From contig NZ_JAFMPP010000005.1 of assembly GCF_017349315.1 (NCBI RefSeq), forward strand, positions 124,001-188,000: a stretch of 64,000 nt of DNA. Direction: 5' to 3'. The stretch is from Jiella flava. GTDB taxonomy: Bacteria; Pseudomonadota; Alphaproteobacteria; Rhizobiales; Rhizobiaceae. Numbering within the stretch: the first letter of the stretch is position 1; the number at the start of each line of letters is the position of its first letter. Of this stretch, positions 16,242 to 33,754 are shown one piece after another. Position numbers and translations under genes: made by a program. The notes below the pieces were generated by a model. The model saw only the letters and a list, made by a program, of their open reading frames with translations, ran no database searches and was not told the origin of the DNA.

Positions 16242-17798
16242 ATGACAGCGCACCCCGACACCGTCCTCATCATCGACTTTGGCTCCCAGGTCACGCAGCT
16301 GATTGCGCGGCGTGTGCGGGAGGCCGGCGTCTATTCCGAAATCGTACCGTTCCAATCGGCGAAAGAGGGTTTCTACCGCCTGAAGCCGAAGGCGGTGATC
16401 CTGTCCGGCTCGCCAGCCTCGGTGACCGACGAGGATGCGCCTGGCGCGCCTCAGGCGATCTTCGATTCTGGGCTGCCGGTTCTCGGCATCTGCTATGGCC
16501 AGCAGACCATGTGCGCCCAGCTCGGGGGCCATATCGAGGGCGGCCTGCATCGCGAATTCGGCCGGGCCTTTGTCGAGGTCCAACAGGCGTCACCGCTGTT
16601 CGAGGGGATCTGGGCCGAGGGCACCCGCCATCAGGTCTGGATGAGCCATGGCGACCGGGTGACCGTGCTGCCCGAGGGGTTTGAAGTGATCGCCGCTTCG
16701 CCCGGTGCGCCCTTTGCGGCGATCGCCGACGAGAGCCGGCGGTTCTACGGCGTGCAGTTCCATCCGGAGGTGATCCACACGCCGGACGGGGCCAAACTCT
16801 TGTCGAACTTCGTCCACAAGATCGCTGGCCTTGCTGGCGATTGGACGATGGCGGCCTTCCGCGAGCAGGCGATCGCCGAGATCCGCGCCAAGGTCGGCGA
16901 CGGAAAAGTCATCTGCGCGCTGTCGGGGGGAGTTGATTCCTCCGTTGCGGCGGTCTTGATCCACGAGGCGATCGGCGAGCAGCTGACCTGCATCTTCGTC
17001 GATCACGGCCTTTTGCGCCTCAACGAGGCCGAGGACGTGGTGGCGATGTTCCGCGACCACTACAACATGCCGCTGGTTCATGTTGAGGCGCAGGACACCT
17101 TCATCGGCGCGCTGGAGGGCGAGAGCGATCCGGAGGTCAAGCGCAAGACCATCGGCCGGCTGTTCATCGAGACCTTCGAGGCCGAAGCCGCCAAGCTTGG
17201 CGGCGCCGATTATCTCGCCCAGGGCACGCTCTATCCGGATGTGATCGAAAGCGTCTCCTTCACCGGCGGACCCTCGGTGACGATCAAGTCGCATCACAAT
17301 GTCGGCGGCCTGCCCGAACGGATGAACATGACGCTCGTCGAGCCTTTGCGCGAACTCTTCAAGGACGAGGTGCGGGCGCTCGGCCGCGAACTCGGTCTGC
17401 CGGCGCATTTCATCGGCCGTCAGCCCTTCCCGGGGCCGGGTCTTGCCATCCGCTGCCCGGGCGGCGTGACCCGCGACAAGCTGCGGATCCTGCGCGAGGC
17501 GGACGCGATCTATCTCGACGAGATCCGCAAGGCGGGCCTTTATGATGCGATCTGGCAGGCCTTCGCGGTGCTTTTGCCGGTCCAGACCGTCGGCGTGATG
17601 GGCGACGGGCGCACCTACGAATTCGTCTGCGCGCTGCGCGCCGTCACCTCGGTCGACGGCATGACGGCGGATTTCTACCCCTTCGACATGGACTTCCTTG
17701 GCCAGGCCGCCACCCGCATCATCAACGAAGTGCGCGGCGTCAACCGGGTGGTATACGACGTGACGTCGAAGCCGCCGGGAACCATCGAGTGGGAATGA
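16242..17798 (+). CDS. guaA: GMP synthase (glutamine-hydrolysing)
   Basis: GuaA converts XMP to GMP using ATP and glutamine. The 518-residue protein has the class I glutamine amidotransferase domain with nucleophile Cys84 in LGICYGQQ and a His-Glu pair in FHPEV, the ATP pyrophosphatase P-loop SGGVDSS (about 228-234) and the C-terminal dimerisation domain ending in PPGTIEWE. Start 16242 gives the standard length; the frame is open 78 bases further up. The last 18 bases serve as the attachment site of the island that follows, and the gene is left intact by the insertion. Confidence 0.97.
17781..17798 (+). other. attL: island attachment site in the guaA 3' end
   Basis: ACCATCGAGTGGGAATGA encodes the last five residues (TIEWE) and stop of guaA and is repeated with one mismatch at 33668-33685. 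The matching ends exactly here: the flanking bases on both sides differ. Confidence 0.85.
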
Positions 17799-17914
17799 TC
17801 TAAGGTCGTTTCAGACCATCTCGCTCCGTGCCAAAAGCCGCACGATCTATTTGACTGATAAGGATTATTTTTCCCACCCCGTATCGCTGCATGTCACCCC
17901 AACCTAGCCACTTT

Positions 17915-17988
17915 GTTGGTAGTGATGTTGGTATGGCGCAGGATGGTCGAGAAACGGGTCTTCAGTACCAACGTTGCTGTTGTTGGTA
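17915..17988. promoter_or_regulatory. Cluster of GTTGGTA repeats, putative integrase arm or excisionase sites
   Basis: GTTGGTA occurs at 17915-17921, 17927-17933 and 17982-17988, and inverted as TACCAAC at 17966-17972, all between attL and the integrase start. One more copy lies at 33604-33610, about 60 bases inside attR, sharing GTTGGTATGG with the 17927 copy. Copies at both ends fit arm-type binding sites. The last pair forms an inverted repeat that could also regulate the integrase promoter. Confidence 0.5.
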
Positions 17989-18018
17989 TCTGTTTGCCCC
18001 CAGACCGGATGCGGATTT

Positions 18019-19368
18019 ATGGGCGATCTCACTGATAAAGAACTGAAAAATCTGAGGCCAAAGGCCAAGCTGTACAAGGTGACGGACCGCGACGGGATGC
18101 ACGCTGCCGTCACGCCGACCGGGGTCATCTCGTTCCGGTATCAGTACCGGGTGAACGGGCGGCAGGAGGTGTTGACCATCGGCCGATATAGCCCCGAAGC
18201 GGCGCGCAAGCTGACACGGGCACCCGATGCGCTGGAATACGGAATGGAGGTGTCGCTCGCCGAGGCGAGGACGCTGCTGGCCCGGGCTCGGCGTCAGGTC
18301 GAGCGTGGAGAGTCGCCGTCGAAGGCCAAGGTGGAGAAGCGCACCGCGTCAGCCGAGGCGTTGACGTTCGGCGGGTGGGCGGAAGCCTACTTCAAGCACA
18401 AGGCCGATCCCAAATCGGGGGCCGAAAAGCTGGCTGACAGCACCTTGGCGATGCGCCGATCGGTCTATGATCGCGCTATCGCGGGCGAGTTGTCGAAACT
18501 CAAGCTGGGAGAAGTGACGCCGCAGCGCCTCAAACGTCTGTGCGACGAGGTCAAGGAGAAGCGCGGACCGGCCGTTGCCGTTCATGTCCGCGAAGTCGTG
18601 TTGCTGGTGTTCCGCCACGCTCAAGGAAGCGGGCTGGATGTAAGCAACCCGGCCGAGTCGATCCGCACCAGCGCCATTGCCACATTCGAACCACGCGACC
18701 GCGCCCTTTCGCCGTCCGAAGTCCGTGCGGTTATTGCGGCTTTGGATCACGTATCGGCGGCTCCCACCTTGCGCTCAGCGGTGAAGTTTGTCTTGCTGAC
18801 CGGTGTTCGCAAGTCGGAGTTCATCGACGCCACATGGGCGGAAATCGACTTTGCCGCCGCGCGCTGGACAATTCCGGCCGAGCGTATGAAGGCGGGCAAG
18901 GCGCATGTCGTTCCGTTGAGTGATCAGGCACTTGATATTCTGACTGCGTTCCGCACCATGTTCGGTGCCAGCCGATACCTGCATCCTGGCCGGTACGATG
19001 GTGATACGCCCATCAGCAACGCCACGCTCAACCGCGTGATAGACACCGCCGTAGAGCGCATCCGGAAAGATGACCCTGACTTTCAGACTTTCGGTGTTCA
19101 CGACCTGCGCCGCACGTTTTCGACGGGCCTAAATCGCGCCAAGTTCGATGATCGCTGGATCGAGATGAGCTTGGCCCACGCGCCACGCAACCGGATCGCC
19201 GCCGTCTACAACGTAAATCGCTACCTCGCCGAGCGGAAGATTATGCTTCAATGCTGGGCCGATATGGTTGACGCTTGGGTGAGGGGCGAATCCGCGAAAG
19301 AGTTGATCGCAGATGCAAAACGGCTTGCAGCCGAGGTCCACGATGATGAACTGGACGACGATCTCTGA
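18019..19368 (+). CDS. Tyrosine recombinase (island integrase, DUF4102 type)
   Basis: This enzyme integrates and excises the island at guaA. The 449-residue protein has an N-terminal arm-binding DUF4102-like domain (LKNLRPKAKLYKVTDRDG), a SAM-like core-binding domain (about 115-210) and the catalytic domain with Arg264 (TGVRKSE), His361 and Arg364 (HDLRRT), a second His in LAHAP and the nucleophile Tyr397 (AVYNVNRY). All expected catalytic residues are present, so it should be active. Start 18019 (MGDLTDKELKN) matches family starts; the frame is open 45 bases upstream. It lies 220 bases from the attachment site with GTTGGTA repeats between. Confidence 0.92.
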   Translation: MGDLTDKELKNLRPKAKLYKVTDRDGMHAAVTPTGVISFRYQYRVNGRQEVLTIGRYSPEAARKLTRAPDALEYGMEVSLAEARTLLARARRQVERGESPSKAKVEKRTASAEALTFGGWAEAYFKHKADPKSGAEKLADSTLAMRRSVYDRAIAGELSKLKLGEVTPQRLKRLCDEVKEKRGPAVAVHVREVVLLVFRHAQGSGLDVSNPAESIRTSAIATFEPRDRALSPSEVRAVIAALDHVSAAPTLRSAVKFVLLTGVRKSEFIDATWAEIDFAAARWTIPAERMKAGKAHVVPLSDQALDILTAFRTMFGASRYLHPGRYDGDTPISNATLNRVIDTAVERIRKDDPDFQTFGVHDLRRTFSTGLNRAKFDDRWIEMSLAHAPRNRIAAVYNVNRYLAERKIMLQCWADMVDAWVRGESAKELIADAKRLAAEVHDDELDDDL

Positions 19369-19395
19369 CCGGAGATGCATCGCAAACCCTTTCTG

Positions 19396-19602
19396 TCAGT
19401 CATTGTCATTGGTGACTCGCCACGCGACGGGGTTTTCGATCCAGCGGTTGATATCGGATTCATGCCAGCCGGTGCCGTTGGTGCTGATCCTGAGTTTGGC
19501 CGGGAACGTGCCCTCGGCGATCTTGCGGTAGATGGTCGAGCGCGACAGACCGGTCCGCGCAAGGACGGTCTTCATGCGGATGATACGGTCTGGCTGATGC
19601 AT
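19396..19602 (-). CDS. AlpA-family helix-turn-helix regulator (excisionase-like)
   Basis: A 68-residue DNA-binding protein of the AlpA/phage regulatory family. It shows KTVLARTGLSRSTIYRKIAE as the winged helix-turn-helix and the typical WHESDINRWIE close. AlpA proteins activate integrase genes or act as excisionases; this one converges with the integrase 27 bases away, and could bind the GTTGGTA repeats (inference). It is transcribed in the same direction as traA, whose stop is downstream of it in the opposite order, so it is probably a separate unit. Confidence 0.85.
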   Translation of the reverse strand: MHQPDRIIRMKTVLARTGLSRSTIYRKIAEGTFPAKLRISTNGTGWHESDINRWIENPVAWRVTNDND

Positions 19603-19733: not shown

Positions 19734-22700
19734 TCAAAGCCCGATCCCGCGTCCCCTGCCCATGTCGATGCCGTGCGCGAAGGCGAGCGCCGCCCCTATC
19801 CGGCGTCCGCTCTCCATCTGGATACCAAGCTCGGCCTTGCGGTTGGCGAGGATGGATTCCATCTGCGGATCGCGTTCAAGGCTCTTGGCCATATTGCCCA
19901 TCTCGGCCCGCGTGGACTTGTAGCCGGACATGTCGCCTGCCTGGTACTGGCGCTGGCTGGTCTGGTCGAGGGCCTGCCAGCGCTGCACGAAGCGGTCGGC
20001 GCGCAGGCTCGGATCGCGGGCCGGATCGGCATCCCGCCCGGTGCCACGTCCGGTGCGGATTTCGGCTTCGAGCTGCAGGGCGCGGATGGTGCGGTTGATG
20101 CGTCCCGTTCCGGCCTCGCGCGCGAGACTGTTGTCCTTGCTGTAAGCGGCTTCCGCATCCTGCCAGCCATTCGGGCGCACGGCATTGAAGGCATCCCGCG
20201 CCGCACCGAGTTGGCGCCGCTGTTCGGCGGAAGGCGTCAGGCCCTCGCGTTTCGCCTCGATGATCGCGTCGGCGGCGCGGGCATGGCGGATCAGCGCATC
20301 GGTGCGGGCCTTGCGCATGGCGGCATCAGGATCAACCGCCACGGCCCTCTCCGGCGCATCCGCCTGCGGCTGAACCGGCGAAGCTGTGTTCGGCTCCTGC
20401 GTCCCGTCAATGCCGGGTGTCGCCCTGTCGATGGATGCTGTGGGGAGCCGCAGGCCGTTGAACATGCCGCGCACCGTCTCCGGCACCTTGCGCACGATCT
20501 CGGCGACACGCTCGCGGAAGCTGATGCCCCGCCGCTCGGCATAATCCCTTGCCGGTTCGGCCTGGCTGTAGTCCGTCGCCATATCCTTGGCCCGGTCGCG
20601 CGACAGGGCGTTGACCAGCCTGTCCCGGCTGGCGAAGTCATCGCGGCCATAATGCAGGTCCATGCCGTCACGATGGCGCGAGAGGGCGACATAGCTGCCA
20701 TGGGCGTCCATGCCGGGCGTGGCCAGAACATGGGTGCGGTCCACCGTCATGCCTTGGGCCTTGTGGATCGTGGCGGCATAGCCGTGGTCGATCCTGTTGT
20801 AATCCTTCAGGTCGAACGAGACATTGCGGCCATCGTCCGTGCGAACCGTCATGGCCTGCGGGCTGACCTGCTCGATGGAGCCAAGCGTCCCGTTCTTCAC
20901 GCCAAGCCCGCGCTCGTTAGCGAGGAACATGACGCGATCCCCGGCGGCGAAGTGTCTGGTCCCGCGCTCGACGGTGACGCGCACGTCCTCGCCCAGATCG
21001 CCAGCCTCCCGCATCCGGCTCCGGGCCGCCTCGTTCAACTCCCGCACCTCGGCGTTGGTGTGGGTGAGGATGATGCGGCTGCTGTCGGGTGACGACTGCC
21101 GCTCCCGGTCCCATCTGTCGATAAGGTCGCCGCGTGCCTGCTCGCGGGTCTCGGCCACATGCACCATATCGTGCGCGTCATAGGCATGGATCGCCGGACC
21201 GGTTCTGCCGGTCGCCAGATCGCGCGTGGCGTCCCGCTGCCAGTCCTCGCGCTGGCGGCGCACCTCGCTGATTTCGACACCGCCATGACGTTCATGGATC
21301 GACCGGAAGGCGGCACCGGCTTCGATGGATTGCAATTGCTGCGGATCGCCGACCAGAACGACCTTGGCTCCGGCTTCCCGCGCATGGGACAGCACACGCT
21401 CCAACTGCCGCGTGCCGACCATGCCCGCCTCGTCGATGACAAGCACGTCGCGCGCCGTGAGCAGGTCGCGGCCCTGTCCCCAGCCATGTTCCATGCTGGC
21501 GATGGTGCGCGAGGCTATGCCTGATCCGCTCTCCAGATTTTCCGCCGCGATGCCGGAGAGCGCCGCGCCGCGAACCTCATAGCCCGCCGCTTCCCACGCC
21601 TCGCGCGCCACGCCCAGCATGGCGCTCTTTCCCGTTCCGGCATAACCGACGACGACGCCGAGATCGCGCCCGTCCGTGACATGCGCCAGCGCCTCGGCCT
21701 GCTCGCCGGACAGGACAAGCCCGCGTCGTTCGGCGCGGACCAGGGCCGCCTCCCTGTCGCGGTCGCTGACCTCGTGCAAGTCCCGCTCGGCCATCAGTGC
21801 CGCCGCGTGGTGCAGGCGCTGTTCGGCCTCGATCATCTCGCGTGTGGTGAACCGGTCCTCGCCGCGTCCGTCTCTGCCCAGTTCGACCAGATCGGGCGCG
21901 CCACGCATCGCGCCCATGACGGCGTTGAACTGGTCCAGCCCATCGCTGTGCCGGTGCGCGAACATCGCCATATCGCGCCGTGTGAAGGTCGATTGCTGAT
22001 GGGTGATCGCGTCCAGCGCCACCGAGGGATCGGCGATGATCCGCACGCCGTTGTTACGCGCGATCTCGCGGTGCATCTCCGCGCGATCCGCCGCCTCGAT
22101 CCCTTCGCCCTCGATGCGCTGCGCGGGCGCGCCGATCTGGCTTTGCGGCTCAAGGCCAATGCCCTGCGCTTCCAGACTGCGGTGGTCGATCCGCGCGTCG
22201 ATGTCGAGTTCGGCCAGCCGCTCGTTGACGTGATCGGCCCAGCGTTCCCGCCAGCGCTCGACCATCTCCGTGCGGTTCCAGTCCCGCACCTTCGAACCGA
22301 ACCCGTTCTCATCCACGCTGCGCATGGTGAGCATGACATGGGCATGGGGTTTGGGGCTGCCGTCCTCGCCGATATCCCAATGCACATTCAGATCGGCGAT
22401 CATGCCCTGATCGACGAATTCGGCCTGCACGAAGTCGCGGGCGAGTTCGACGCCCTGGGCCTGCGTCATCTCGCGCGGAAGGGCGAACTCCACCTCGCGG
22501 GCGAGCTGGGCGTCCTTCCTGACTTCGAACGCCTCGACATCGTTCCAGAGCCGTTCGCGGTCGCTCCATGACTCGGGCGCGTTCTCCGGCAGCATGACCT
22601 CGGAATGGACGACACCGCGTTTGCCGGAGAAGTCGTGGCTGCGTTCAAGCCGGTCGTCGCGCAGCCGCGAGGCCGAGCGGTAGGCGGCGGACGCCACCGC

Positions 22701-22754
22701 GCTGGAGCCTGCCTTGCGGCCAATGACCTTGACGTGAAGATGATAGATCGCCAT
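19734..22754 (-). CDS. traA: Ti-type conjugative relaxase TraA (MOBQ relaxase plus helicase)
   Basis: TraA nicks oriT, stays bound to the 5' end and unwinds the strand for transfer. Starting at MAIYHLHVKVIGR (22754) it has 1006 residues: a MobA/MobL relaxase domain (about 1-230) with Tyr25 in AAYRSAS and metal-binding HAH at 137-139, and a RecD/TraI-like helicase domain with Walker A GYAGTGKSA (about 375) and Walker B VIDEAGM (about 440). The C-terminal 250 residues are charged and less conserved. It is divergent from traC-traD across a 181-bp gap holding an oriT-like sequence, exactly the Ti-plasmid arrangement. Confidence 0.93.
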   Translation of the reverse strand: MAIYHLHVKVIGRKAGSSAVASAAYRSASRLRDDRLERSHDFSGKRGVVHSEVMLPENAPESWSDRERLWNDVEAFEVRKDAQLAREVEFALPREMTQAQGVELARDFVQAEFVDQGMIADLNVHWDIGEDGSPKPHAHVMLTMRSVDENGFGSKVRDWNRTEMVERWRERWADHVNERLAELDIDARIDHRSLEAQGIGLEPQSQIGAPAQRIEGEGIEAADRAEMHREIARNNGVRIIADPSVALDAITHQQSTFTRRDMAMFAHRHSDGLDQFNAVMGAMRGAPDLVELGRDGRGEDRFTTREMIEAEQRLHHAAALMAERDLHEVSDRDREAALVRAERRGLVLSGEQAEALAHVTDGRDLGVVVGYAGTGKSAMLGVAREAWEAAGYEVRGAALSGIAAENLESGSGIASRTIASMEHGWGQGRDLLTARDVLVIDEAGMVGTRQLERVLSHAREAGAKVVLVGDPQQLQSIEAGAAFRSIHERHGGVEISEVRRQREDWQRDATRDLATGRTGPAIHAYDAHDMVHVAETREQARGDLIDRWDRERQSSPDSSRIILTHTNAEVRELNEAARSRMREAGDLGEDVRVTVERGTRHFAAGDRVMFLANERGLGVKNGTLGSIEQVSPQAMTVRTDDGRNVSFDLKDYNRIDHGYAATIHKAQGMTVDRTHVLATPGMDAHGSYVALSRHRDGMDLHYGRDDFASRDRLVNALSRDRAKDMATDYSQAEPARDYAERRGISFRERVAEIVRKVPETVRGMFNGLRLPTASIDRATPGIDGTQEPNTASPVQPQADAPERAVAVDPDAAMRKARTDALIRHARAADAIIEAKREGLTPSAEQRRQLGAARDAFNAVRPNGWQDAEAAYSKDNSLAREAGTGRINRTIRALQLEAEIRTGRGTGRDADPARDPSLRADRFVQRWQALDQTSQRQYQAGDMSGYKSTRAEMGNMAKSLERDPQMESILANRKAELGIQMESGRRIGAALAFAHGIDMGRGRGIGL

Positions 22755-22784
22755 CGCGATCCCAACATCAGCACGGAAAAGCGC

Positions 22785-22812
22785 ACGTCGGAACGACGTA
22801 TAAGCGCGCCCT
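22785..22812 (+). other. Putative origin of transfer (MOBQ type)
   Basis: A perfect hairpin ACGTCG-GAA-CGACGT (22785-22799) is followed after one base by TAAGCGCGCCCT (22801-22812). RSF1010-type and Ti-type oriTs have an inverted repeat followed by a TAAGTGCGCCCT-like nick region, so both sequence and position (between divergent traA and traC) agree. The nick is expected within GCGCCCT. Confidence 0.72.
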
Positions 22813-22935
22813 CGAAATGAAATTCTCGGGACTGCCCGCGCCGTGTCAGACTGTCCCGGCGACAATACAGCATTCCTCGTGGCGCTCCACTATCATCGCT
22901 CCAACGGCAACTTGCAGAGACGATTGGAGACCCTG

Positions 22936-23262
22936 ATGCGCAAGCCACGCGACTATGACGCCGAACTGAAGGCGCTCGAAGACAAGGCCAAAGACCTCAA
23001 GACACGCAAGGTCCAGCAACTCGGCGAACTGGTGATCGCCACCGGAGCCGACACGCTCACCGCCGACGAACTGGCGGGCGCGCTGATCGTGCTGGCGGAA
23101 ACCACCGATGCCGCAAAGAGGGAGGCATGGGCCAAGCGCGGCGCGGCATGGTTTCGGGGAAAATCACGGCGATCTGCATCAGCGCTTGAGCGCGACAGTG
23201 GCGGCGCTCAAACGCAATCGAGCGGCGCGCAACCGGCATCAGGCGCAACGGGCGCGGCATGA
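22936..23262 (+). CDS. traC: TraC-like conjugal transfer protein
   Basis: A 108-residue relaxosome accessory protein of the kind found beside oriT in Ti plasmids. It starts MRKPRDYDAELKALEDKAKD, has an alanine- and lysine-rich helical middle (QQLGELVIATGAD, then AKREAWAKRGAAWF) and a low-complexity C-terminus. The start at 22936 is preceded by GGAG at about 22926-22929. traD starts two bases after its stop. In annotation practice this family is named either TraC or TraD. Confidence 0.8.
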   Translation: MRKPRDYDAELKALEDKAKDLKTRKVQQLGELVIATGADTLTADELAGALIVLAETTDAAKREAWAKRGAAWFRGKSRRSASALERDSGGAQTQSSGAQPASGATGAA

Positions 23263-23263
23263 C

Positions 23264-23506
23264 ATGCGCACCTGGCAGGTCGAGCGCCGCAAGCGCACGC
23301 GGCACCTGATCGAACTCGGCGGCCTCGTCGTCAAATCCGGGGTCGTGGACCTCACGAATGACGACCGCGCCACGATCCTCGGCGCGCTCCTCTGGATGGC
23401 CGACAAGCTCAAGAGCGACGACGGACAACGCGCGCGACAACTGTGGGCCGGAAAAGGAAAGCAGGCGTTCGAGAATGAACGCCATGGCATCACCGGAAAA
23501 AGCTAG
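23264..23506 (+). CDS. traD: TraD-like conjugal transfer protein
   Basis: An 80-residue protein with the family signature RRKRTRHLIELGGLVVKSG followed by DRATILGALLWMADKL and a KGKQAFE end. TraD proteins assist the relaxosome of Ti-like plasmids. Start 23264 fits the family length; the frame is open upstream into traC. In Ti plasmids traG follows here, but in this island the next gene is the convergent AbiE toxin, whose stop overlaps the traD stop by four bases. The junction probably marks where transfer genes were lost or defence genes were added. Confidence 0.82.
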   Translation: MRTWQVERRKRTRHLIELGGLVVKSGVVDLTNDDRATILGALLWMADKLKSDDGQRARQLWAGKGKQAFENERHGITGKS

Positions 23507-24363
23507 ACTCCGAACCGCTTTCGCATGTCTCCGGTCTTTGCCCATTCGCCGCCGGGTATCCGGTCGATCAATTCATTCATCACCCTGACGAAAGCGGCTT
23601 TGAGCGTCTCGTCGTTCAGCGCCTTGGCGCGATCTGTCTGGAGCAGCGGGCGCATGTCAGTGAAGAAGTTCGGATTGACGAGTTTCTGGAACATGCGCTG
23701 CTGCGCCTCGGCCCTGGAAATCGTCACCTCCGACTTTTCAAGGTAAAGCAGGAAACATTCGACGATTCTTGCCGCATTCACTCCCTCAAACACGGTGAGA
23801 GCGTGGTCGAGGTCGAACAGATCGCGGCCTTTGCTGCGTTGAAGCAAAGCCCGTAGCTTGGTTGCCAGCATTTCTTCTCGCGAGAAGGTTGGGATGGCGA
23901 CCTCGCCGGCGAACCAGGGATTTTCGACGCCGAAAGAAATCTCGATGGGCGGATCGTAGGCTTCCCGTTCACGCGTGTTGATTTCGATCTTGAGCTTTAT
24001 CGGGCTCGGCGAGTCTCTGTCTTCGGCATCGACCGTGTATTTGAGCTTGGGTGCAACGGGACTTTGATCGAAGCGGGGTTTGCCGAGCCACGGATCAAGG
24101 ACGCCATGTAGGTGGTCCAATATCGGACTGATGGGGCCGGCGGTTGTTCGGACAAGATCTATGTCTTCCGAGTAGCGTAGCGGTGCGGGGAAATGCAGCT
24201 TGTTGAGTGCTGTGCCGCCTCGGAAGCGCAGTTCGCCACGCAGGAATGGATCGGAGAAGATGGCGACAAGCGCACGGCTGATGATGAGGTCTTGCTCGAC
24301 CTGCCGCTGGCTGGCCCACGGCGCGACGCGGCTCCAAGCGGTGATGTAGTCCTGCGGAATCAT
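23503..24363 (-). CDS. abiEii: AbiEii-type nucleotidyltransferase toxin
   Basis: Toxin of a type IV toxin-antitoxin pair used in phage abortive infection; related toxins transfer nucleotides onto tRNA. The 286-residue protein has the polymerase-beta-like motif GGTALNK (49-55) with SEDIDL (65-70), a downstream KLKIEIN strand, and the EEMLATKLRALLQRSKGRD segment typical of the family. All expected catalytic residues are visible. Its start overlaps the antitoxin stop by four bases (ATGA type), so the two are co-translated. Confidence 0.9.
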   Translation of the reverse strand: MIPQDYITAWSRVAPWASQRQVEQDLIISRALVAIFSDPFLRGELRFRGGTALNKLHFPAPLRYSEDIDLVRTTAGPISPILDHLHGVLDPWLGKPRFDQSPVAPKLKYTVDAEDRDSPSPIKLKIEINTREREAYDPPIEISFGVENPWFAGEVAIPTFSREEMLATKLRALLQRSKGRDLFDLDHALTVFEGVNAARIVECFLLYLEKSEVTISRAEAQQRMFQKLVNPNFFTDMRPLLQTDRAKALNDETLKAAFVRVMNELIDRIPGGEWAKTGDMRKRFGV

Positions 24364-25399: not shown

Positions 25400-25597
25400 A
25401 TGGCAGACGAAATTCTGACGATTCGAGAGGTGGCTGAACTCCTCAAGATCAACGAGAAGACCGCCTACAAGCTCGCTCTCGCGCGCGAGATTCCGGGCTT
25501 CAAGGTCGGCGGCTCATGGCGGTTCCAGCGGCAGGAAATCGCAAACTGGATAAAGCGTAAGGTGGAAGAACAACAAAAGGGCGGTAGGGGAGAATGA
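25400..25597 (+). CDS. Small helix-turn-helix (excisionase-family) DNA-binding protein
   Basis: A 65-residue protein with the HTH_17/excisionase fold: LTIREVAELLKINEKTAYKL, then IPGFKVGGSWRFQRQEI and a basic tail. Its stop overlaps the hsdR start (ATGA at 25594-25597), so it is the first gene of the restriction operon. Possible roles are a transcriptional controller of the hsd genes or a second recombination factor; the position favours the first. No strong ribosome site precedes 25400. Confidence 0.82.
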   Translation: MADEILTIREVAELLKINEKTAYKLALAREIPGFKVGGSWRFQRQEIANWIKRKVEEQQKGGRGE

Positions 25598-27966
25598 CGA
25601 ACGAAGCCGATACTTGCCGAAAGTTCGTCACGCCCAAGCTGCAAACTGCCGGTTGGGATAGTGAACCTCATTCCATTGCCGAGCAGCGCACCATCACGGA
25701 TGGTCGCGTCATTCCGGTGGGCAAGGGTTTTGTTCGCAAACCACCCAAACGGGTGGACTACCTGCTGCGCTACACGCGGGACTTTCCGCTCGCCGTGGTC
25801 GAGGCGAAGGCGAGCTACAAATCCGCGACCGACGCCGTGCAGCAGGCCCGAGAATATGCGGAAATCCTCAGTCTTAAATACGCCTACGCCACCAACGGTG
25901 TCGAGATCATCGAGATCGACTATTTCAAGGGAACGGAAACTCGCGTCCCCGACTTCCCCACGCCGGACGACCTTTGGCGGCGCTATCAGGCAGGCAGTGG
26001 GATCAACACGCCCGAGCGTGTGGAGCACCTGATCGCCCCCTACAACACGGTCGGCGGTAAGCCGCCCCGCTACTATCAGCAGATCGCCATCAACCGCACG
26101 GTCGAAGCCATCCTTGCTGGAAAGAAGCGCCTGCTGCTCACGATGGCGACGGGCACCGGCAAAACCATCGTGGCCTTCCAGATTTGCTGGAAGCTCTGGT
26201 CGAGCCGCTGGAACACGACCGGAGAATATCGCAAGCCGCGCATCCTATTCCTCGCGGATCGCAACATCCTCATCGACGACCCAAAAGACAAGACCTTCAC
26301 CCCCTTCGGGGATGCCCGCCACAAGATTGAATCTGGCGAGATCGTCAAAAGCCGGGAAATGTATTTCGCGATCTATCAGGCTCTAGCCGAGGACGAGCGC
26401 CGCACAGGGCTCTTCCGCGACTATCCGCCGGACTTCTTCGATCTTATCATCGTTGATGAATGTCACCGGGGCAGCGCACGAGACGATAGTTCGTGGCGTG
26501 TCATCCTTGAGCATTTCAAGCCCGCCTACCAGCTTGGCATGACGGCCACACCGCTGCGCGAAGACAACCGCGACACTTACCTCTATTTCGGCAATCCCAT
26601 CTACGAATACAGCTTGCGCCAGGGCATTGACGACGGTTTTCTCGCCCCCTATCGAGTGCATCGCATCGTCACCCAATGGGATGCGACAGGTTGGCGTCCA
26701 AGCAAGGACGAGGTTGACCGCTTCGGCCGCGCGATCCCCGACGACGAATACCAGACCAAGGACTTCGAGCGGTCCATCGCCTTGCGCGCCCGCACGGATG
26801 CCATCGCCCGCCACCTGACCGACTTCCTCAAAAAGACCGACCGCTTCGCCAAGACCATCGTGTTCTGCGTCGATCAGGAACACGCCTCGGAAATGCGGCA
26901 GGCGCTGGTCAATCTCAATGCCGACCTTGTGGCGCAGTATCCCGACTATGTGGCGCGCGTCACCGCCGATGAGGGTGCCATCGGGCGCGGCCACCTGTCG
27001 AAATTCCAAGACCTCGAAACCAAAACGCCGGTTATCCTCACGTCGTCGCAGCTTCTGACGACCGGCGTTGATGCGCCGACTTGCAAGAATGTCGTTCTGG
27101 CGCGCGTCGTCGGGTCCATGAGCGAGTTCAAGCAGATCATCGGGCGCGGGACGCGCCTGCGCGATGACTATGGCAAGCTGTGGTTCAACATCCTCGATTA
27201 CACCGGCTCGGCCACCCGCATGTTCGCCGACCCGGACTTCGACGGCGATCCGGCCCGGATCACGGAAGAAGAAGTCAACGACGCAGGCGAGACCACCGCG
27301 GCGACGGAGATCATCCCCGACGGGCAGGAACCGGAGCCCGCCCCGCCGGAGGAAGGCGAACCCGGCGTGATCGAGCCGCCGACCGGCGAACCGCGCAAAT
27401 TCTATTTCGACGGGGGCCAGGTCGAAGTCGTGGCCCATTTGGTCCACGAGCTTGATCCGAACGGCAAGCAGCTTCGCGTCGTCAAATACACCGACTACGC
27501 CGCCGAAAGCGTCCGCTCGCTCGCGCCGACCTCCGCCGAGCTTCGTAAGCGTTGGGCGGATGCAGACCAGCGCAGCGAGATCATCGCCGCGCTGGCCGAA
27601 CGCGGCATAGACTTTGAGGTGCTGGCCGAACAGACGGGCCAAACCGACGCGGACCCCTTCGACCTGCTTTGCCATCTGGCCTTCCACGCGCCGCTTCGCA
27701 CAAGGCGCGAACGGGCGCAGCGCCTCAAGGCCGAGCGAAAAGACTATTTCGAGAAGTTCTCGCCCGAAGCGCGTCAGGTGCTCGACGAGCTTCTGGAAAA
27801 ATACGCGGAACACGGCGATGCGCAGTTTGTCCTGCCGGACGTGCTCAAGGTTCCGCCCATTTCAACCCACGGCCAGCCCGCCGAAATCATCAAGCTGTTC
27901 GGCGGCCCCGATGAACTTCGCCGGGCCGTGAACGACCTGCAAGGACTGCTCTATGGCACGAACTAA
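25594..27966 (+). CDS. hsdR: Type I restriction endonuclease subunit R
   Basis: HsdR translocates DNA and cleaves unmodified targets as part of the R2M2S complex. The 790-residue protein has an N-terminal nuclease region with VEAKA (about 69-73), a helicase domain with Walker A ATGTGKT (about 184-190), DECH box (about 288-291) and later SAT-like and QIIGRGTRLRDD motifs, and a C-terminal EcoEI-type domain. A Glu/Pro-rich linker lies near residues 565-600. All motifs are intact. It overlaps the HTH gene by four bases and hsdM by 14 bases. Confidence 0.94.
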   Translation: MTNEADTCRKFVTPKLQTAGWDSEPHSIAEQRTITDGRVIPVGKGFVRKPPKRVDYLLRYTRDFPLAVVEAKASYKSATDAVQQAREYAEILSLKYAYATNGVEIIEIDYFKGTETRVPDFPTPDDLWRRYQAGSGINTPERVEHLIAPYNTVGGKPPRYYQQIAINRTVEAILAGKKRLLLTMATGTGKTIVAFQICWKLWSSRWNTTGEYRKPRILFLADRNILIDDPKDKTFTPFGDARHKIESGEIVKSREMYFAIYQALAEDERRTGLFRDYPPDFFDLIIVDECHRGSARDDSSWRVILEHFKPAYQLGMTATPLREDNRDTYLYFGNPIYEYSLRQGIDDGFLAPYRVHRIVTQWDATGWRPSKDEVDRFGRAIPDDEYQTKDFERSIALRARTDAIARHLTDFLKKTDRFAKTIVFCVDQEHASEMRQALVNLNADLVAQYPDYVARVTADEGAIGRGHLSKFQDLETKTPVILTSSQLLTTGVDAPTCKNVVLARVVGSMSEFKQIIGRGTRLRDDYGKLWFNILDYTGSATRMFADPDFDGDPARITEEEVNDAGETTAATEIIPDGQEPEPAPPEEGEPGVIEPPTGEPRKFYFDGGQVEVVAHLVHELDPNGKQLRVVKYTDYAAESVRSLAPTSAELRKRWADADQRSEIIAALAERGIDFEVLAEQTGQTDADPFDLLCHLAFHAPLRTRRERAQRLKAERKDYFEKFSPEARQVLDELLEKYAEHGDAQFVLPDVLKVPPISTHGQPAEIIKLFGGPDELRRAVNDLQGLLYGTN

Positions 27967-29512
27967 AAAGAAGAACGGCGCAGACGCCGCACCGATGACG
28001 ACCTCCCAGATGCTCGGTAGCCTTCTCAAGTCCGCGCGCGACATCATGCGCAAGGACAAGGGGCTAAATGGCGACCTCGACCGTCTACCGCTTCTCACAT
28101 GGATCATGTTCCTCAAATTCCTCGACGATCTCGAGCAGCAGCGCGAGGAAGAGACAGCGCTATCCGGCAAAAAGTTCAAGGCCGCCATCGAGGCTCCGTA
28201 TCGCTGGCGCGATTGGGCCGCCGATCCGCAGGGGATCACAGGCGACGAACTGCTTTCCTTCATCAATTCCGACGAAGCCGTGCGCTCGGATGGGACGAAA
28301 GGTCTCGGCCTGTTCGCTTATCTGCGTTCGCTCTCAAGTTCCAACGGCGATAACCGCCGCGACGTGATCGCCACCGTATTCAAGGGCGTCGATAACCGCA
28401 TGAAGAGCGGCTATCTGCTCCGCGACATCATCAACAAGGTTGGCGGGATTCATTTCACGTCGTCGGACGAGCTTCACACCCTCGGCGCGCTCTACGAATC
28501 CATGCTCCGCGAAATGCGCGACGCGGCGGGCGATTCCGGCGAGTTCTACACCCCGCGCGCCGTCGTCCGCTTCATGGTGGAAGTCACCGATCCTCGGCTT
28601 GGCGAAACCGTCCTCGACCCAGCCAGCGGCACGGGCGGGTTCCTGGTGGAAGCCTACAACCACCTTGAAAAACAAGTGAAGACCGTCGCCGACCGCAAGC
28701 GTCTGCAAGACGACTCTATCGCCGGCTGCGAACCAAAATCCCTCCCATATTTGCTGTGCCAGATGAACCTGCTGCTGCACGGGCTGGACGCGCCGCAGAT
28801 CGACCCCGGCAACGCCCTGCGTTTCAAGCTCACCGAGATCGGCGAGAAAGAGCGCGTCGATGTGATCCTTACCAACCCGCCCTTTGGGGGTGAGGAGGAG
28901 AAGGGCATCCAGGGGAACTTCCCCGAAGACCGCCAGACAGCGGAAACCGCGCTGCTGTTCCTTCAGCTCATTATGCGCAAGCTCAAACGCCAGCCGACTC
29001 TCGCTGGTCGCCCGGCGCGTGCTGCTGTCGTCGTGCCGAACGGCACGCTGTTCGGCGACGGCGTATGCGCTCGCATCAAGGAAGAGCTTCTCAAGTCATT
29101 TAATCTGCACACAATCGTCCGACTTCCTAACGGGGTGTTTGCCCCCTACACGCCGATCCCTACCAACCTTCTATTCTTTGATTCATCTGGCCCGACTAAA
29201 GATATTTGGTTCGTCGAACACACCATCCCTGAAGGACGAAAACATTACACCAAGACACAGCCGCTGAAATACCCAGATTTCGAGCCATGCCTCAACTGGT
29301 GGAACCGCCGTGAGGTCAACGAAAGTGCCTGGATGGTGCCAGTGTCCGAGATTCGAGACGCCAATTACAATCTCGATCAACGAAATCCAAACAAGAAGAG
29401 CTTAGTTGACGAACTGGCACCGGCCGAGGCCGCCAATCGCATTCTGCAAAGCGAAAGAGAGATATTGGCTATACTCGAAGGGCTCGTAAATTCTATGAGT
29501 GAAGGCTCATGA
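27953..29512 (+). CDS. hsdM: Type I restriction-modification methyltransferase subunit M
   Basis: HsdM methylates adenine in the recognition sequence chosen by HsdS, using S-adenosylmethionine. The 519-residue protein has the N-terminal HsdM helical domain, SAM motif DPASGTGGF (about 222-230) and catalytic NPPFGG (about 307-312). The start overlaps hsdR by 14 bases and the stop overlaps hsdS by four. From about 29095 onward the base composition drops visibly towards A+T, continuing into hsdS. Confidence 0.94.
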   Translation: MARTKKKNGADAAPMTTSQMLGSLLKSARDIMRKDKGLNGDLDRLPLLTWIMFLKFLDDLEQQREEETALSGKKFKAAIEAPYRWRDWAADPQGITGDELLSFINSDEAVRSDGTKGLGLFAYLRSLSSSNGDNRRDVIATVFKGVDNRMKSGYLLRDIINKVGGIHFTSSDELHTLGALYESMLREMRDAAGDSGEFYTPRAVVRFMVEVTDPRLGETVLDPASGTGGFLVEAYNHLEKQVKTVADRKRLQDDSIAGCEPKSLPYLLCQMNLLLHGLDAPQIDPGNALRFKLTEIGEKERVDVILTNPPFGGEEEKGIQGNFPEDRQTAETALLFLQLIMRKLKRQPTLAGRPARAAVVVPNGTLFGDGVCARIKEELLKSFNLHTIVRLPNGVFAPYTPIPTNLLFFDSSGPTKDIWFVEHTIPEGRKHYTKTQPLKYPDFEPCLNWWNRREVNESAWMVPVSEIRDANYNLDQRNPNKKSLVDELAPAEAANRILQSEREILAILEGLVNSMSEGS

Positions 29513-30753
29513 CCGGGATTAGTGTCCAAAACGCACCCTTCACCGACGTATTTGAACGCGTGAAACGCCCGACTTTCCTTGAGGATGCGGTCGAATACCC
29601 GTGCCTCGGTGTCCGCTGGTATGGCCTTGGCGCGTATATCCGCGAGACAAAGCTCGGAGGCACGATTGCGCGCAAGGAGCAGTGGCGAGTAAAGGAGAAC
29701 GACGTTCTCTATAACAAGCTCTTCGCGTGGCGTGGTGCCTTCGCCGTCGCTGACAAGATTGCCGACGAATGTATCGCGTCTGATAAGTTCCCGACCTACC
29801 GTTTCGACTGCTCCCGAGTTAATCCTGACTATCTGCGGCTATGGTTTCGAAGCCCTCAGCTTGCCGATCAAGCGCAAGCCCTTTCGAAAGGGGCGGCCGC
29901 ATTGAGCAAACTAACGCTGAATCCACCTGACTTTTGGAAACTTACAATTCCGCTCCCGCCGCTTCAGCAGCAAACCGAAATTGCGCAAACAGTCATGGCG
30001 ATGCTCACCTCGATCGAGCGCATCGAACGAGCGCGCGCACCCCTTGATGCAACGATCCACGGGCGGCGCGCAGGCGTGGGTTCGCAGGTTCGGCTTGTCC
30101 TCGATGCTGCGTTGGCCGATCTCAATTCTTGCTTCGTATCTGACCTTGGCATTCTGGATGAGGTCCTGACGATGCGACCACGGTCGGGGCCTTCCTTCGT
30201 TGTCTCTGAGGAAGGAGAGGGCATACCCGTGATTATGCCGTCGGCAACGCTTGGCTATCGCTATGATGCGGCGAAGTGCCTTTACGGCCTCGGCGGCGAG
30301 GCTGTCTCACCAAAGGACATTCTTACTCCTGGTGATCTCTTGATATCTCGTGGAAATTATCGCGATCAGGTTGGCATCTGCATAGTTTATCCAGGAGCGG
30401 CTGAGGAGAGGACTTACGCTAATTTGCTTATGCGTATGCAGGTCGATCGAGCTCGAGTGATGCCCGAATTCGTCAAGTATTGGATTATGTCTCCCCTCTG
30501 TGTGCACTACATTCGCAAGCACACCAAGGGAACAAGCCCATCTGTCCAAAAGATCAATCAGCGTGCGCTAGTTGCTATGCCGTTTCCACGCGGCGCGGCT
30601 CTCAATGTGCAGCGAACCTGGGTGGAGCGACTGGATCGGGTATTCGATGAAGCTGAATATCTCGAACGCAAAATACGCGAACAGTATTCTGCAATTCAGG
30701 CGTTCAAGGACAACCTCATCCGGGCTGCCTTTGATGGGCGCCTTGAGTGTTAG
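29509..30753 (+). CDS. hsdS: Type I restriction specificity subunit S
   Basis: HsdS sets the DNA target. The 414-residue protein has a first target-recognition domain (about 1-145), the conserved FWKLTIPLPPLQQQTEIAQ helix region (about 143-161), a second recognition domain (about 210-360) and a closing coiled-coil with AIQAFKDNLIRAAFDGRLE. Its first domain is short and divergent. A+T content is higher than in hsdR, as is usual for exchangeable specificity genes. It overlaps hsdM by four bases and is followed after nine bases by the ATPase gene. Confidence 0.9.
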   Translation: MTGISVQNAPFTDVFERVKRPTFLEDAVEYPCLGVRWYGLGAYIRETKLGGTIARKEQWRVKENDVLYNKLFAWRGAFAVADKIADECIASDKFPTYRFDCSRVNPDYLRLWFRSPQLADQAQALSKGAAALSKLTLNPPDFWKLTIPLPPLQQQTEIAQTVMAMLTSIERIERARAPLDATIHGRRAGVGSQVRLVLDAALADLNSCFVSDLGILDEVLTMRPRSGPSFVVSEEGEGIPVIMPSATLGYRYDAAKCLYGLGGEAVSPKDILTPGDLLISRGNYRDQVGICIVYPGAAEERTYANLLMRMQVDRARVMPEFVKYWIMSPLCVHYIRKHTKGTSPSVQKINQRALVAMPFPRGAALNVQRTWVERLDRVFDEAEYLERKIREQYSAIQAFKDNLIRAAFDGRLEC

Positions 30754-30762
30754 GCGGAGGGG

Positions 30763-33390
30763 ATGGTCCAAATGAGCGCCTCGACTGCGCAATCCGCTCC
30801 TCTAACCGAAAAGGCGGCCCTCACAGACCTCGTGACATGGGCAGAGAAGCGCCCGGCGTGGCAGAGGGACGCCCTTCGCCGTCTGGTCACAGGTGAAACG
30901 CTCAACGATCAAGCGATTGAGGAACTTACGGAGCTTTGCCTGGATCCCGCGCGCACCCATACGCCGATTGCACAATTACATATTGTGGCTGAAACCAGCG
31001 CCGCAGAGCCGATTTCACTCATTTCGATAAAGAACCCCACCGCCATCAACGCGCTTGCCAGCCAACAAGAGCTATCCTTTGAACCTTCCGGGTTGACGGT
31101 GATTTACGGCGACAACGGTTCGGGAAAGTCCGGCTATGTCCGTCTCCTGAAACACGCGTGTCGGTCGCGGGACGAAAAGTTCGCAATTCACAGGGACTTG
31201 GAAGACAAGACCGACACGCCGCAATCTGCGGAGATATGTTTTACGCGGGGTGCGAACACCGAAAAATTCAATTGGACGCCTGACGGTGAGCCGCAAAGCG
31301 ACCTGCCATCGGTCAGCATCTTCGACTCCCGAAGCGCAAGCATCCATGTCGAAAGCACCAACGAGGTAGCCTATATCCCCCGGCCAATGCGGTTGCTGGA
31401 GGCGCTGGCCGATGCTTCCGACCGCGTTAAAACGGCGCTCGACGGCAAGATCGCAACGCTCAAGGGGCAAATTCCCCTTGCGATTTCAAACCCGTCTCTG
31501 AGCAGGGAAACGGCCGCTGGCAGCTATGTCTTCGCGTTGAGCGCGAAATCCAACATCCCGCAGCTTGATAAGCTCGCCGCGTTTACCGATCAGGAAACCG
31601 CTCGCCTCACCACGCTGGAAACCGACTTCGCTCAAGACCCCAAGCGCGCCGTGGCGCGGCTTGATAATCAGCGCGGTGAAGCGGAGCGCATCCAGGCGAC
31701 CCTTCAAACCCTTATTGCGGCTACGAATGCGGTGGCGTTCGCGGGAATCAAGACACTGAGAAAGACCCACGGCGATGCCGTGGAAGCAGCGTCGTTAGCA
31801 TCGCAACAGCTATTCAGCGCATCGCCATTGCCCGAGGTAGGCCAAGCCGCCTGGCAAAAACTGTGGGAGGCCGCCCGCACCTATGCGGACACCGTGGCCT
31901 ATCCCGGCAAGACCTTCCCTTCGAGCGAACCGGATACGCTTTGCGTGCTTTGTCAGCAGCCCCTCGGAGCTGACGCAATGGTGCGCCAGCAGACATTCGA
32001 GTCGTTTGTAAAAAGCTCGACGAAGGCTGATGAAGCGACGGCGCGCGCGAAGCTGGATGCCGCGCTCACGCAGTTGAAAGGGCAAATGCTGCGCCTTGGC
32101 GATGTGCTAAAATCCGGCAAATTCCTCGCCACTGAGATCGGCGATGCGGCGCTTGCCCAGCAAGTCCGCCGGGCCTTTGTCGTGGCGCTTTGGCGGCTTC
32201 GGGCAATGGTCAGGGCATACGGCGAGCCCAAGCCGCTTGGCGCTGATCCGCTCCAGGCACTTATGGCGCTCGCAACCGATCTCAAGACCCGTGCCGCGCA
32301 GCTTTCCGCCGATACGCAGAGCGACGACTACAAGAAGCTGAAATCCGAATACCTTGAACTCAAGGAGCGTTCCGCCCTTGCGCCGCTGCTCCCGGACATC
32401 AAGGCGCAGATTGCGCGCCTCAAGGAAATCGAGTCGATCAACACCGCGCTGAAGGCGACCGCCAAGAAGCCGATCACCGATAAGAACAAGGAACTCTCGG
32501 ATCGTATGGTGACGGACGCGCTGCGCGGTCGGTTTGCGCGCGAGATCGGAAAGCTCAAGTTGTCCAGAATGCCCGTTGAGCTACGCAAGGAGAAAGATCG
32601 GCAGGCCGTATCGTATTTTCGCGTTGCGCTAGTTGAGAACCCTAACGCCAAGGTCGGTGAGATATTCAGCGAAGGCGAACACCGCTGCGTTGCGCTTGCC
32701 GCTTTCCTTGCCGAGTTGGTGACGGCGCAGCGTTATTCTGGCATCGTTTTCGATGATCCGATGTCATCGCTCGACCACATACACAGGGGCGCAGTTGCGG
32801 CGAGGTTGGTGGAGGAAGCGGAACACCGCCAGGTCGTCGTATTCACGCATGACCTCGTGTTCTTGTACGAACTTCGCCGCGAAGCCGAAAAGGCAAACCG
32901 GCCGATCGCCTTTCGTAATGTCAGGCGGCAGCAAGACAAGCCCGGCTACATTGAAAACGAGTTGCCGGACAAGGCTAAATCAGGGCTTGAGATGTGCAAC
33001 GCGCTGCGGTCGTCGCTCAAAGCGGCAAAGCCGGGCTTTGACAAGCTGACCGATACGCAGCGCACCATTTTTTGCAAAGGGACTATTGGTCAGTTGCGTG
33101 ATGCCTGGGAACAGGCGATCTCCGACTATATCCGTCCCGTGCTTGAGCGGTTCGACAACAAGGTTAAGCCGACTTCAATGTTCAAGCTCGGCATTCTCAC
33201 CGAGGACGACGTGAAGCGGGTGATGGTAGCCCAATCGAGGCTGTCCGAAGACCTTCATTCGTCGGCGCAGGCGCTGAACCCTGAAGCTGTCTCGCTTGAT
33301 GACCTGCTCAATGAGGTCAAGGCGCTGGAAGATTGGATTCAGTCTATCCGTGACCGTCAAAAGAATGTGGTTAAGCCTGTTCTGAATTGA
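30763..33390 (+). CDS. RloC-like AAA ATPase with zinc-hook motif, possible anticodon nuclease
   Basis: An 875-residue SMC/Rad50-like ATPase: Walker A GDNGSGKS (116-123), long helical arms, CVLC zinc-hook motif (Cys394, Cys397) near the middle, ABC signature FSEGEH (about 635-640) and Walker B GIVFDDPMSS (660-669). This layout is that of RloC, a tRNA anticodon nuclease linked to type I restriction loci. The C-terminal 100 residues contain Arg779-x3-Glu783 and His832, reminiscent of the Arg-Glu-His triad of PrrC/RloC, though the spacing to His differs. ATG at 30772 is an alternative start. It follows hsdS by nine bases, so it is the last gene of the restriction operon. ATPase call is firm; nuclease role is inferred. 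Confidence 0.75.
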   Translation: MVQMSASTAQSAPLTEKAALTDLVTWAEKRPAWQRDALRRLVTGETLNDQAIEELTELCLDPARTHTPIAQLHIVAETSAAEPISLISIKNPTAINALASQQELSFEPSGLTVIYGDNGSGKSGYVRLLKHACRSRDEKFAIHRDLEDKTDTPQSAEICFTRGANTEKFNWTPDGEPQSDLPSVSIFDSRSASIHVESTNEVAYIPRPMRLLEALADASDRVKTALDGKIATLKGQIPLAISNPSLSRETAAGSYVFALSAKSNIPQLDKLAAFTDQETARLTTLETDFAQDPKRAVARLDNQRGEAERIQATLQTLIAATNAVAFAGIKTLRKTHGDAVEAASLASQQLFSASPLPEVGQAAWQKLWEAARTYADTVAYPGKTFPSSEPDTLCVLCQQPLGADAMVRQQTFESFVKSSTKADEATARAKLDAALTQLKGQMLRLGDVLKSGKFLATEIGDAALAQQVRRAFVVALWRLRAMVRAYGEPKPLGADPLQALMALATDLKTRAAQLSADTQSDDYKKLKSEYLELKERSALAPLLPDIKAQIARLKEIESINTALKATAKKPITDKNKELSDRMVTDALRGRFAREIGKLKLSRMPVELRKEKDRQAVSYFRVALVENPNAKVGEIFSEGEHRCVALAAFLAELVTAQRYSGIVFDDPMSSLDHIHRGAVAARLVEEAEHRQVVVFTHDLVFLYELRREAEKANRPIAFRNVRRQQDKPGYIENELPDKAKSGLEMCNALRSSLKAAKPGFDKLTDTQRTIFCKGTIGQLRDAWEQAISDYIRPVLERFDNKVKPTSMFKLGILTEDDVKRVMVAQSRLSEDLHSSAQALNPEAVSLDDLLNEVKALEDWIQSIRDRQKNVVKPVLN

Positions 33391-33754
33391 TGGCCATGAG
33401 GGAATCGTCCAACAGGTTGTTGGACAAATTTGCGGGGGTAGTCAGTTTCAGCGCGATGGGCGGGGCGAGGAGCCTTCTCCTGAAGCTCAAACCTTCCAGT
33501 CTGCGTATCCTCGAACCTCGTTTATGATGTACCAGCGTTTATGACGGGAAGGATTGCAGTATACGATCCGCAAAACCAGCCCGTTTGGCTTGATGGTATC
33601 GCAGTTGGTATGGATTTTGGGCCTGAGCTGAAAGCCCAATATTTACAACGCGAACTCAAACCCATTGACCATCGAGTGGGAGTGACGGACAAAATGGGGC
33701 GGGGATCAGCGCCGTTTCGGCGATGATTAATTCCGGCCATGCCGGGGTGGGCTG
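33391..33754. other. Right end of the island and junction spacer
   Basis: No convincing gene. It holds a GTTGGTA motif at 33604-33610 and the right attachment site at 33668-33685. A 61-codon frame (33541-33726) runs through the attachment site and has no recognisable similarity. Sequence after 33685 should be the original region downstream of guaA. Confidence 0.55.
33668..33685 (+). other. attR: right attachment site of the island
   Basis: ACCATCGAGTGGGAGTGA repeats the last 18 bases of guaA with one A-to-G difference. The flanking sequence differs on both sides, and no guaA coding sequence precedes it. Confidence 0.83.

Follow-up and report, generated by a model that had tools for sequence, protein, structure and literature searches.

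What occupies the 3′ end of guaA in Jiella flava, where does it begin and end, and could it move? The window analysed here, a stretch of 64,000 nucleotides (contig NZ_JAFMPP010000005.1, positions 124,001 to 188,000, assembly GCF_017349315.1), had been described in a first-pass annotation as holding a complete mobilizable island at this site with both attachment (att) sites. Our analysis supports that description: a repeat pair, the ends of sister elements and the empty sites found in relatives of sister carriers point, with a probability of roughly 85%, to a 15.9-kb integrative mobilizable element (IME) in the guaA 3′ end. The element has a clear anatomy with two ends, its family prefers guaA throughout, and the genome contains no match to VirD4 or VirB4.

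Ends of the element and the crossover site

The two ends consist of the following features.

17781..17798, plus strand: attL, the last 18 bases of guaA with its stop; predicted crossover core GAGTGGGA at 17787–17794
17799..18018, no strand: left arm, from attL to the integrase gene; 80–90% identity to this interval in loci with a close integrase
33628..33667, no strand: right arm, ending in ...CCCATTGACC; a similar type precedes attR in 15 of 16 paired sisters
33668..33685, plus strand: attR, the second guaA-end 18-mer, one mismatch; core GAGTGGGA at 33674–33681

The recurrence of the guaA 3′ end at 33668–33685 with one mismatch, which the first-pass annotation had pointed out, holds: ACCATCGAGTGGGAATGA at 17781–17798 and ACCATCGAGTGGGAGTGA at the far end, 18 bp each, are the only matches in the window within three mismatches of the 18-bp pattern, where 0.08 would be expected by chance, and none of 100 shuffles yielded two such matches. 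Three further near matches in the genome, with three mismatches each, all lie on other contigs. The distance from core to core is 15,887 bp. The G+C content of the island (0.605) is lower than that of its left flank (0.642) or of the right flank after 33685 (0.635), and it is divided between a host-like transfer half (0.648) and a cargo half that is unlike the host (0.585).

For comparison, a wider scan of a genome collection with the integrase kept the best 80 loci, on which all of its counts were made; 32 of them, with an integrase at least 85% identical to that of the window (87–97%), are called the close group, and the other 48 the distant group. In 16 of 27 sister genomes (G078 included), the contig holds a second core past the integrase, on the same strand. 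Fifteen of these 16 far ends share the right-arm type of the window, ending TTGACC-ATCGAGTGGGA as at 33628–33681, and their elements measure 10.6 to 74 kb from core to core; the exception, G080 (L183), has a different right end. The left arm likewise starts with the motif found at sister attL sites. The second 18-mer could in principle be a chance match, or a fragment of the conserved guaA 3′ end duplicated by some process unrelated to integration. With no shuffle giving two matches, with the 40 bases before attR matching the right ends of 15 of 16 sisters, and with the sister empty sites described below falling exactly at the core, we consider this exceedingly improbable.

The differences between attL and attR of the sisters also indicate where the strands are exchanged. 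The integrase-side copy reads GAGTGGGA-GTGA in all 15 elements and the far copy continues with ATGA, GTAA or ATAA in eight of them, while the Nitrobacter pair differs at the base preceding GAGTGGGA. Taken together, these differences would place the crossover inside GAGTGGGA, with the element writing the last codon and stop of guaA. The window pair is reversed relative to the sisters, with ATGA at guaA and GTGA at the far end, which would fit A in the element and G in the host. The earlier statement that the insertion leaves guaA intact is right in that the gene is an open reading frame (ORF) of 544 amino acids with its stop at 17798; it needs amending in that the gene is probably not just left intact, its last bases being supplied by the element.

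Empty sites show the same junction. In one Methylosinus congener of a sister carrier (G254), guaA (95.7% over 600 bp) runs directly into the right flank of the sister element (96.3% over 999 bp), and in one Shinella congener (G261) guaA (98.2% over 600 bp) joins the flank (92.0% over about 1 kb), both with zero gap; a Mesorhizobium congener (G213) has guaA and flank 25 bp apart. One of nine Methylosinus congeners had guaA joined to the flank, flank-like sequence (69–72%) standing at five other places in loci without guaA (L198–L201, L204). One of 20 Shinella genomes was joined at base resolution, five more had guaA 69–135 bp before recognisable flank, and three loci (L212, L216, L217) had flank and no guaA match. 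One of 40 Mesorhizobium genomes gave any flank match. A pattern that would have refuted the first-pass annotation, both cores present in a relative lacking the integrase, was seen in none of ten relatives without this integrase at guaA, searched over about 20 kb after guaA (L068–L077).

The predicted empty site, with guaA continuing directly into the flanking sequence, is thus borne out base for base for sister elements in one Methylosinus and one Shinella congener. For the window's own species, where guaA would have to continue into the sequence past 33685, no empty site was found among the relatives examined, either by DNA (right flank against nine congeners, 150 family genomes and the guaA loci of relatives) or by protein (against as much as 20 kb of DNA following guaA in ten relatives), because none of them has the window's right flank beside guaA. 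The right-flank search in relatives returned only short or diverged matches, all in loci without guaA (L059–L067, L185–L193).

This absence raises the possibility of a larger, composite island, in which the 18-bp repeat bounds an inner unit and the flank past 33685 belongs to an older guaA-associated insertion. The genes just before guaA are conserved in relatives, and stacked guaA elements do occur in sisters. In Xanthobacter YC-JY1 (L178/L179), guaA is followed by a 47%-identical integrase, then 52 kb on by an element of the close type, and then by an integrase fragment; in Nitrobacter (L177) a close-type element is followed immediately by an element with a 45%-identical integrase; and left-arm-like sequence of further elements comes directly after attR in Gluconacetobacter (L165), Ancylobacter (L176) and Acidiphilium (L229). 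However, a third core within three mismatches is absent from the window and from the rest of the contig, the G+C content past 33685 resembles that of the left flank and not that of the cargo half, and the ORFs of the right flank match nothing after guaA in ten relatives, so that this region is variable anyway. A composite island seems to us rather improbable. As for stacking itself, one may speculate that it lets a neighbouring conjugative element carry the IME.

Outside the island, a class A beta-lactamase-like gene (PF13354; 33755–34624, minus strand) ends about 70 bp after attR. Beyond it are GDPD and ABC-transporter genes, a flank that does not stand beside guaA in the relatives examined.

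The integrase and its preference for guaA

Two genes follow the left arm.

18019..19368, plus strand: tyrosine integrase, 449 aa, P4-like, with Arm-DNA-bind_3 and Phage_integrase domains
19396..19602, minus strand: AlpA-family gene, 68 aa (PF05930, E 5.6e-17), a putative recombination directionality factor (RDF), downstream of traA

The integrase alignment has invariant R264, K291, H361/R364, H387 and Y397 in columns of catalytic type, and the protein matches PRK09692, a model of P4-like integrases, with a score below the model cut-off. The AlpA gene had been overlooked in the first-pass annotation, whose other gene assignments (integrase, TraA, TraC, TraD, AbiE and hsdRMS) all stand. A plus-strand reading at this place (19375–19725) was discarded, since minus frame −3 shows the higher conservation (mean 68% versus 54%) and matches PF05930. 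Insertion in the guaA 3′ end, GAGTGGGA in the direct repeat and a P4-like integrase with AlpA nearby are together the features of a guaA-type island.

Sixty relatives contained five full-length integrase homologues (46–48% identity), all within 350 bp after guaA. Likewise, in 28 of the 32 close loci guaA lies 166–222 bp upstream of the integrase; in the other four the contig starts 236 bp before the integrase (L124), the core is present without guaA (L099, L118), or the core has a mismatch and guaA is likewise absent (L112). Even in the distant group, 45 of 48 integrases adjoin guaA (within 450 bp), and for two of the other three the upstream sequence is shorter than 1 kb. The hosts of the close group are, among others, Methylosinus, Methylocapsa, Nitrobacter, Devosia, Xanthobacter, Ancylobacter, Mesorhizobium, Shinella, Roseomonas, Gluconacetobacter, Acidiphilium and Rhizomicrobium, and the three carriers whose taxonomy was checked fall in the orders Hyphomicrobiales, Micropepsales and Acetobacterales. 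Since the close loci are more alike to the window in integrase DNA (83–91%) than in their guaA (70–81%), the element moves between lineages.

Five betaproteobacterial loci of Paraburkholderia, Aquabacterium, Piscinibacter and Variovorax (L111, L113, L115–L117) also have guaA integrases, 56–74% identical to that of the window in their best segment, with no traA match in the DNA fetched. In Xanthobacter autotrophicus AM5 (L180), a close-type element starts at ATGGAGTGGGAGTGA (position 9995), and the 10 kb before it contain no match to guaA; the element may have used a secondary integration site or belong to an array.

A transfer module and its missing channel

The transfer module lies between AlpA and the cargo.

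19734..22754, minus strand: traA, 1006 aa, Ti-type MobQ relaxase/helicase, start chosen at the ATG (22754)
22779..22813, no strand: core of a putative origin of transfer (oriT), a 35-mer with an inverted repeat and a nick-region-like run, between traA and traC
22936..23262, plus strand: traC, TraC/TraD-family relaxosome accessory protein (PF06412, E 2.2e-17), ATG read from the sequence
23264..23506, plus strand: traD, small Ti-type TraD, not the VirD4 coupling protein (PF06412, E 2.2e-23)

TraA scores 916 bits against TIGR02768 (TraA_Ti, cut-off 590) and 254 against NF041496 (MobQ, cut-off 200); TraD reaches 44 bits against NF010421, below the cut-off of 117. The putative oriT was assigned by its conservation: the 35-mer is identical in 11 of 14 traA-bearing sister loci and keeps 33–34 of its 35 bases in the other three, and the run after its inverted repeat resembles the RSF1010/Ti nick region. 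That coupling and secretion genes are absent, as had been remarked for the island, extends to the whole genome (listed as 99.99% complete) for two markers, PF02534 (VirD4) and PF03135 (VirB4), neither of which has a match, so any helper would have to be supplied from outside. With an integrase and att sites of its own, its own relaxase and a putative oriT, and no complete conjugation machinery, the island has the composition of an IME; the type IV secretion system that would make it an integrative and conjugative element (ICE) is lacking by the same two markers.

In the working that we propose, the integrase would recombine GAGTGGGA of the circular element with the identical octamer in guaA, and the element would provide the last codon and stop, so that the essential guaA stays whole. 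AlpA, just downstream of traA, would probably be co-expressed with it and is likely the directionality factor for excision, in which case excision would be coupled to relaxase expression. TraA with TraC and TraD would nick the circle at the oriT beside traA, an arriving conjugative element would provide the coupling protein and the channel, and after transfer the element would re-enter guaA, present in most recipients. The right half would serve as a cargo bay, filled here with AbiE, an EcoAI-like type I restriction-modification system and the PDC-S06 ATPase, and in sisters with other defence systems.

Alternatively, the island could be degraded and immobile, with ends and integrase still recognisable, and kept only for its defence or addiction genes. 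The genome's lack of a VirD4 or VirB4 match would agree with this, as would a second AlpA gene in the same genome (contig C7:269–584, L002), 87% identical in DNA to that of the island. No traA was found in the few hundred bases before that gene, the start of the contig resembles a transposase end, and the gene is probably what is left of another such element, which suggests that one has already decayed in this genome. Yet in the island the integrase, AlpA, traA, traC, traD and all cargo genes are open, both cores and arms are present, and the oriT 35-mer is exactly that of 11 of 14 sisters. We regard a degraded island as unlikely, if a little less so than a composite one.

Defence cargo and the known guaA elements

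The cargo half of the IME comprises seven genes.

23503..24363, minus strand: abiEii, nucleotidyltransferase toxin (PF08843, PDLC02294)
24360..25187, minus strand: abiEi, antitoxin (PF09407, PDLC02282)
25337..25597, plus strand: small HTH_17 protein before hsdR (PF12728, E 5e-15), start uncertain, longest ORF from 25286
25594..27966, plus strand: hsdR, EcoAI/FtnUII-type type I restriction subunit (NF046051, 1056 bits, cut-off 550)
27953..29512, plus strand: hsdM, type I methyltransferase (PF02384, PDLC03025)
29509..30753, plus strand: hsdS, type I specificity subunit (PF01420, PADLOC Specificity_I)
30763..33390, plus strand: PDC-S06 candidate-defence ATPase, 875 aa (PDLC04891, E 1e-181 over full length), with a central CxxC

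An HsdR above its cut-off next to hsdM and hsdS makes this a type I restriction-modification system of the EcoAI/FtnUII kind; hsdR homologues, 97% identical, occur in four of the 32 close loci. MADS was rejected as a cargo system, MAD2 scoring 80 bits against a cut-off of 720 and the PADLOC mad matches on the hsdM and hsdS products being weaker than the type I matches. The PDC-S06 protein has a Walker A motif, a central CVLC and a C-terminal RLSEDLH. From CxxC and R-x5-H only, it would fit an ATPase-coupled nuclease of RloC/HEPN type with a zinc hook; no relative of solved structure was found at E 0.01.

The vehicle is more constant than its cargo. Among the 32 close loci, AlpA was found in 26, traA in 24, traC and traD in 22 each, AbiE in 11, the HTH (helix-turn-helix) gene in 10, hsdR in four and PDC-S06 in none, counts that are lowered by contig ends and by the 10-kb limit. 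A known or candidate defence system was present in 11 of 12 sister elements, all traA-bearing and read to or nearly to their far end (L167 lacks the integrase side, and L172 stops before attR), PADLOC having covered 37 of their 61 listed ORFs.

L165: type III methyltransferase-like protein and PDC-S19
L166: type III restriction and Argonaute; AbiE in two pieces
L168, L177: type IIG; AbiE also in L177
L169, L170, L171, L176, L178: type I
L172: type III methyltransferase; AbiE
L170: SIR2-HerA; L171: HEC-01
L169, L170, L175: AbiE also; L178: another AbiE type
L167: partial HEAT-ARM matches only

As a control, the longest ORF downstream of a distant guaA integrase (the first 10 of 14 such ORFs) gave no PADLOC match at E 1e-30; by Pfam the ten comprised two TraG-type ATPases, two Mu-type transposases, a metal ATPase, three enzymes and two without a match. 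A second sample, drawn from the close loci by a similar rule, gave matches in six of ten: AbiEi, PDC-S68, ZorA, HsdR, RT_UG19 and a DrmD-like helicase. Its misses were L089, L097, L101 and L104, the last three with no traA or a fragment only. This sample was hand-picked and not blind, with two of its six matches (L085, L100) known beforehand, and took 10 of 13 close-integrase ORFs, leaving out L095 (a known hsdR homologue) as well as L107 and L114 (genomes sampled as L176 and L167). Since the control loci may represent long conjugative elements, or host DNA over the 10 kb, the contrast in defence content is suggestive only.

The constancy of the vehicle, together with the other defence systems in sisters, suggests that the family is a mobilizable vehicle in which Alphaproteobacteria pass on interchangeable anti-phage systems. 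More tentatively, at what we judge somewhat short of even odds, the guaA IMEs could be a dedicated, order-crossing carrier of swappable defence systems, helped by neighbouring guaA elements, even in cis; the neighbours may be helpers because elements stack in tandem and because TraG-type ATPases occur in two of the ten distant-integrase loci.

Several findings, besides the missing empty site of the window, weigh against our explanation of the island. Eight of the 32 close loci have no traA match by the criterion used, and two of these end within 140 bp of the integrase. The other six (L097, L101, L102, L104, L124, L125) are without traA in 8.6–10 kb downstream, apart from a weak fragment in L101, which means that the integrase also moves independently of the transfer module and serves other islands. 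Of the 16 paired elements, two (of 40.7 and 74 kb) fall in this traA-less group; the 40.7-kb element, without traA in the 10 kb fetched, is the sister of the Mesorhizobium empty site in G213. A partial integrase homologue (G036:C28, 50% over 161 aa) is not near guaA. The control for defence content is weak and the close-versus-distant contrast only suggestive; PDC-S06, by the criterion used, has a homologue in none of the best 80 loci, and its defence role is that of a candidate. AlpA is a likely directionality factor by family membership and position only, and we infer excision, the steps of integration, transfer and present-day mobility.

How does this family compare with known elements? GuaA-associated genomic islands have been described (Song et al. 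2012, as cited in PMC7775301), and experiments have shown that GIsul2 excises and integrates at guaA (PMC9376610). GIsul2 and ICERspD18B (PMC7775301) resemble the window in having the integrase after guaA, the 8-bp GAGTGGGA in the repeat and AlpA near the integrase. They differ in their IncP-related transfer proteins and type IV secretion system, respectively, and in carrying resistance cargo, where the window has Ti-type traA/oriT/traC/traD and defence genes. A review table (PMC5704250) gives three guaA 3′-end IMEs with a tyrosine integrase, the IncP island, GIsul2 and ATE-1, with relaxases of MobP (IncP island) and MobV (ATE-1) in contrast to the MobQ of the window; the same 2017 review stated that no canonical IMEs, with their own relaxase and no coupling or channel protein, had been described in Proteobacteria.

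The closest likeness in transfer genes is with the IMEMl-R88B-like traACD IMEs of Mesorhizobium (PMC8627217), which have a Ti-plasmid-like traA and a divergent traC around oriT and, like the window, a putative RDF gene downstream of traA. Those that were delineated sit at tRNA genes or radC, unlike the window at guaA, so that the transfer module is shared and the integration module is not; their TraA is filed under MOBF by the authors, whereas that of the window matches the NCBIfam MobQ model. That study reports guaA for ICEs and mentions CRISPR spacers, and in the sections used describes no guaA IME with defence cargo (PMC8627217). The target guaA, GAGTGGGA and AlpA at that site, and traACD IMEs with an RDF gene, are thus already known; what is new is the pairing of guaA targeting with traACD in a cross-order family whose defence half changes. 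We found no description of a guaA/traACD defence IME family in the open-licence literature. The combination is not the unusual one that the first-pass annotation had called it, because integrase, AlpA and traA/oriT/traC/traD recur together at guaA as a family across alphaproteobacterial orders.

Mobile elements are known carriers of defence systems, but the vehicle itself often goes undelimited. Here its ends are defined, its target gene is shared widely, its oriT is conserved, and empty sites occur in the relatives of sister carriers. As the cargo changes and the vehicle stays similar, the passage of anti-phage systems between orders, and the helper elements involved, can be tested directly, and the conserved arms offer a simple handle for complete islands and for new defence genes between traD and attR.

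Beyond guaA, plasmid p2 of Paracoccus sp. TOH (NZ_CP098363.1; L228, 161800–182950) carries traA, two TraD-family genes and AlpA in similar order, with 83% DNA identity over 22% of the island. There the module lies close to trb genes and a gene annotated 'recombinase family protein'; the stretch shown holds no guaA integrase, and the transfer module appears to have been exchanged between recombinases.

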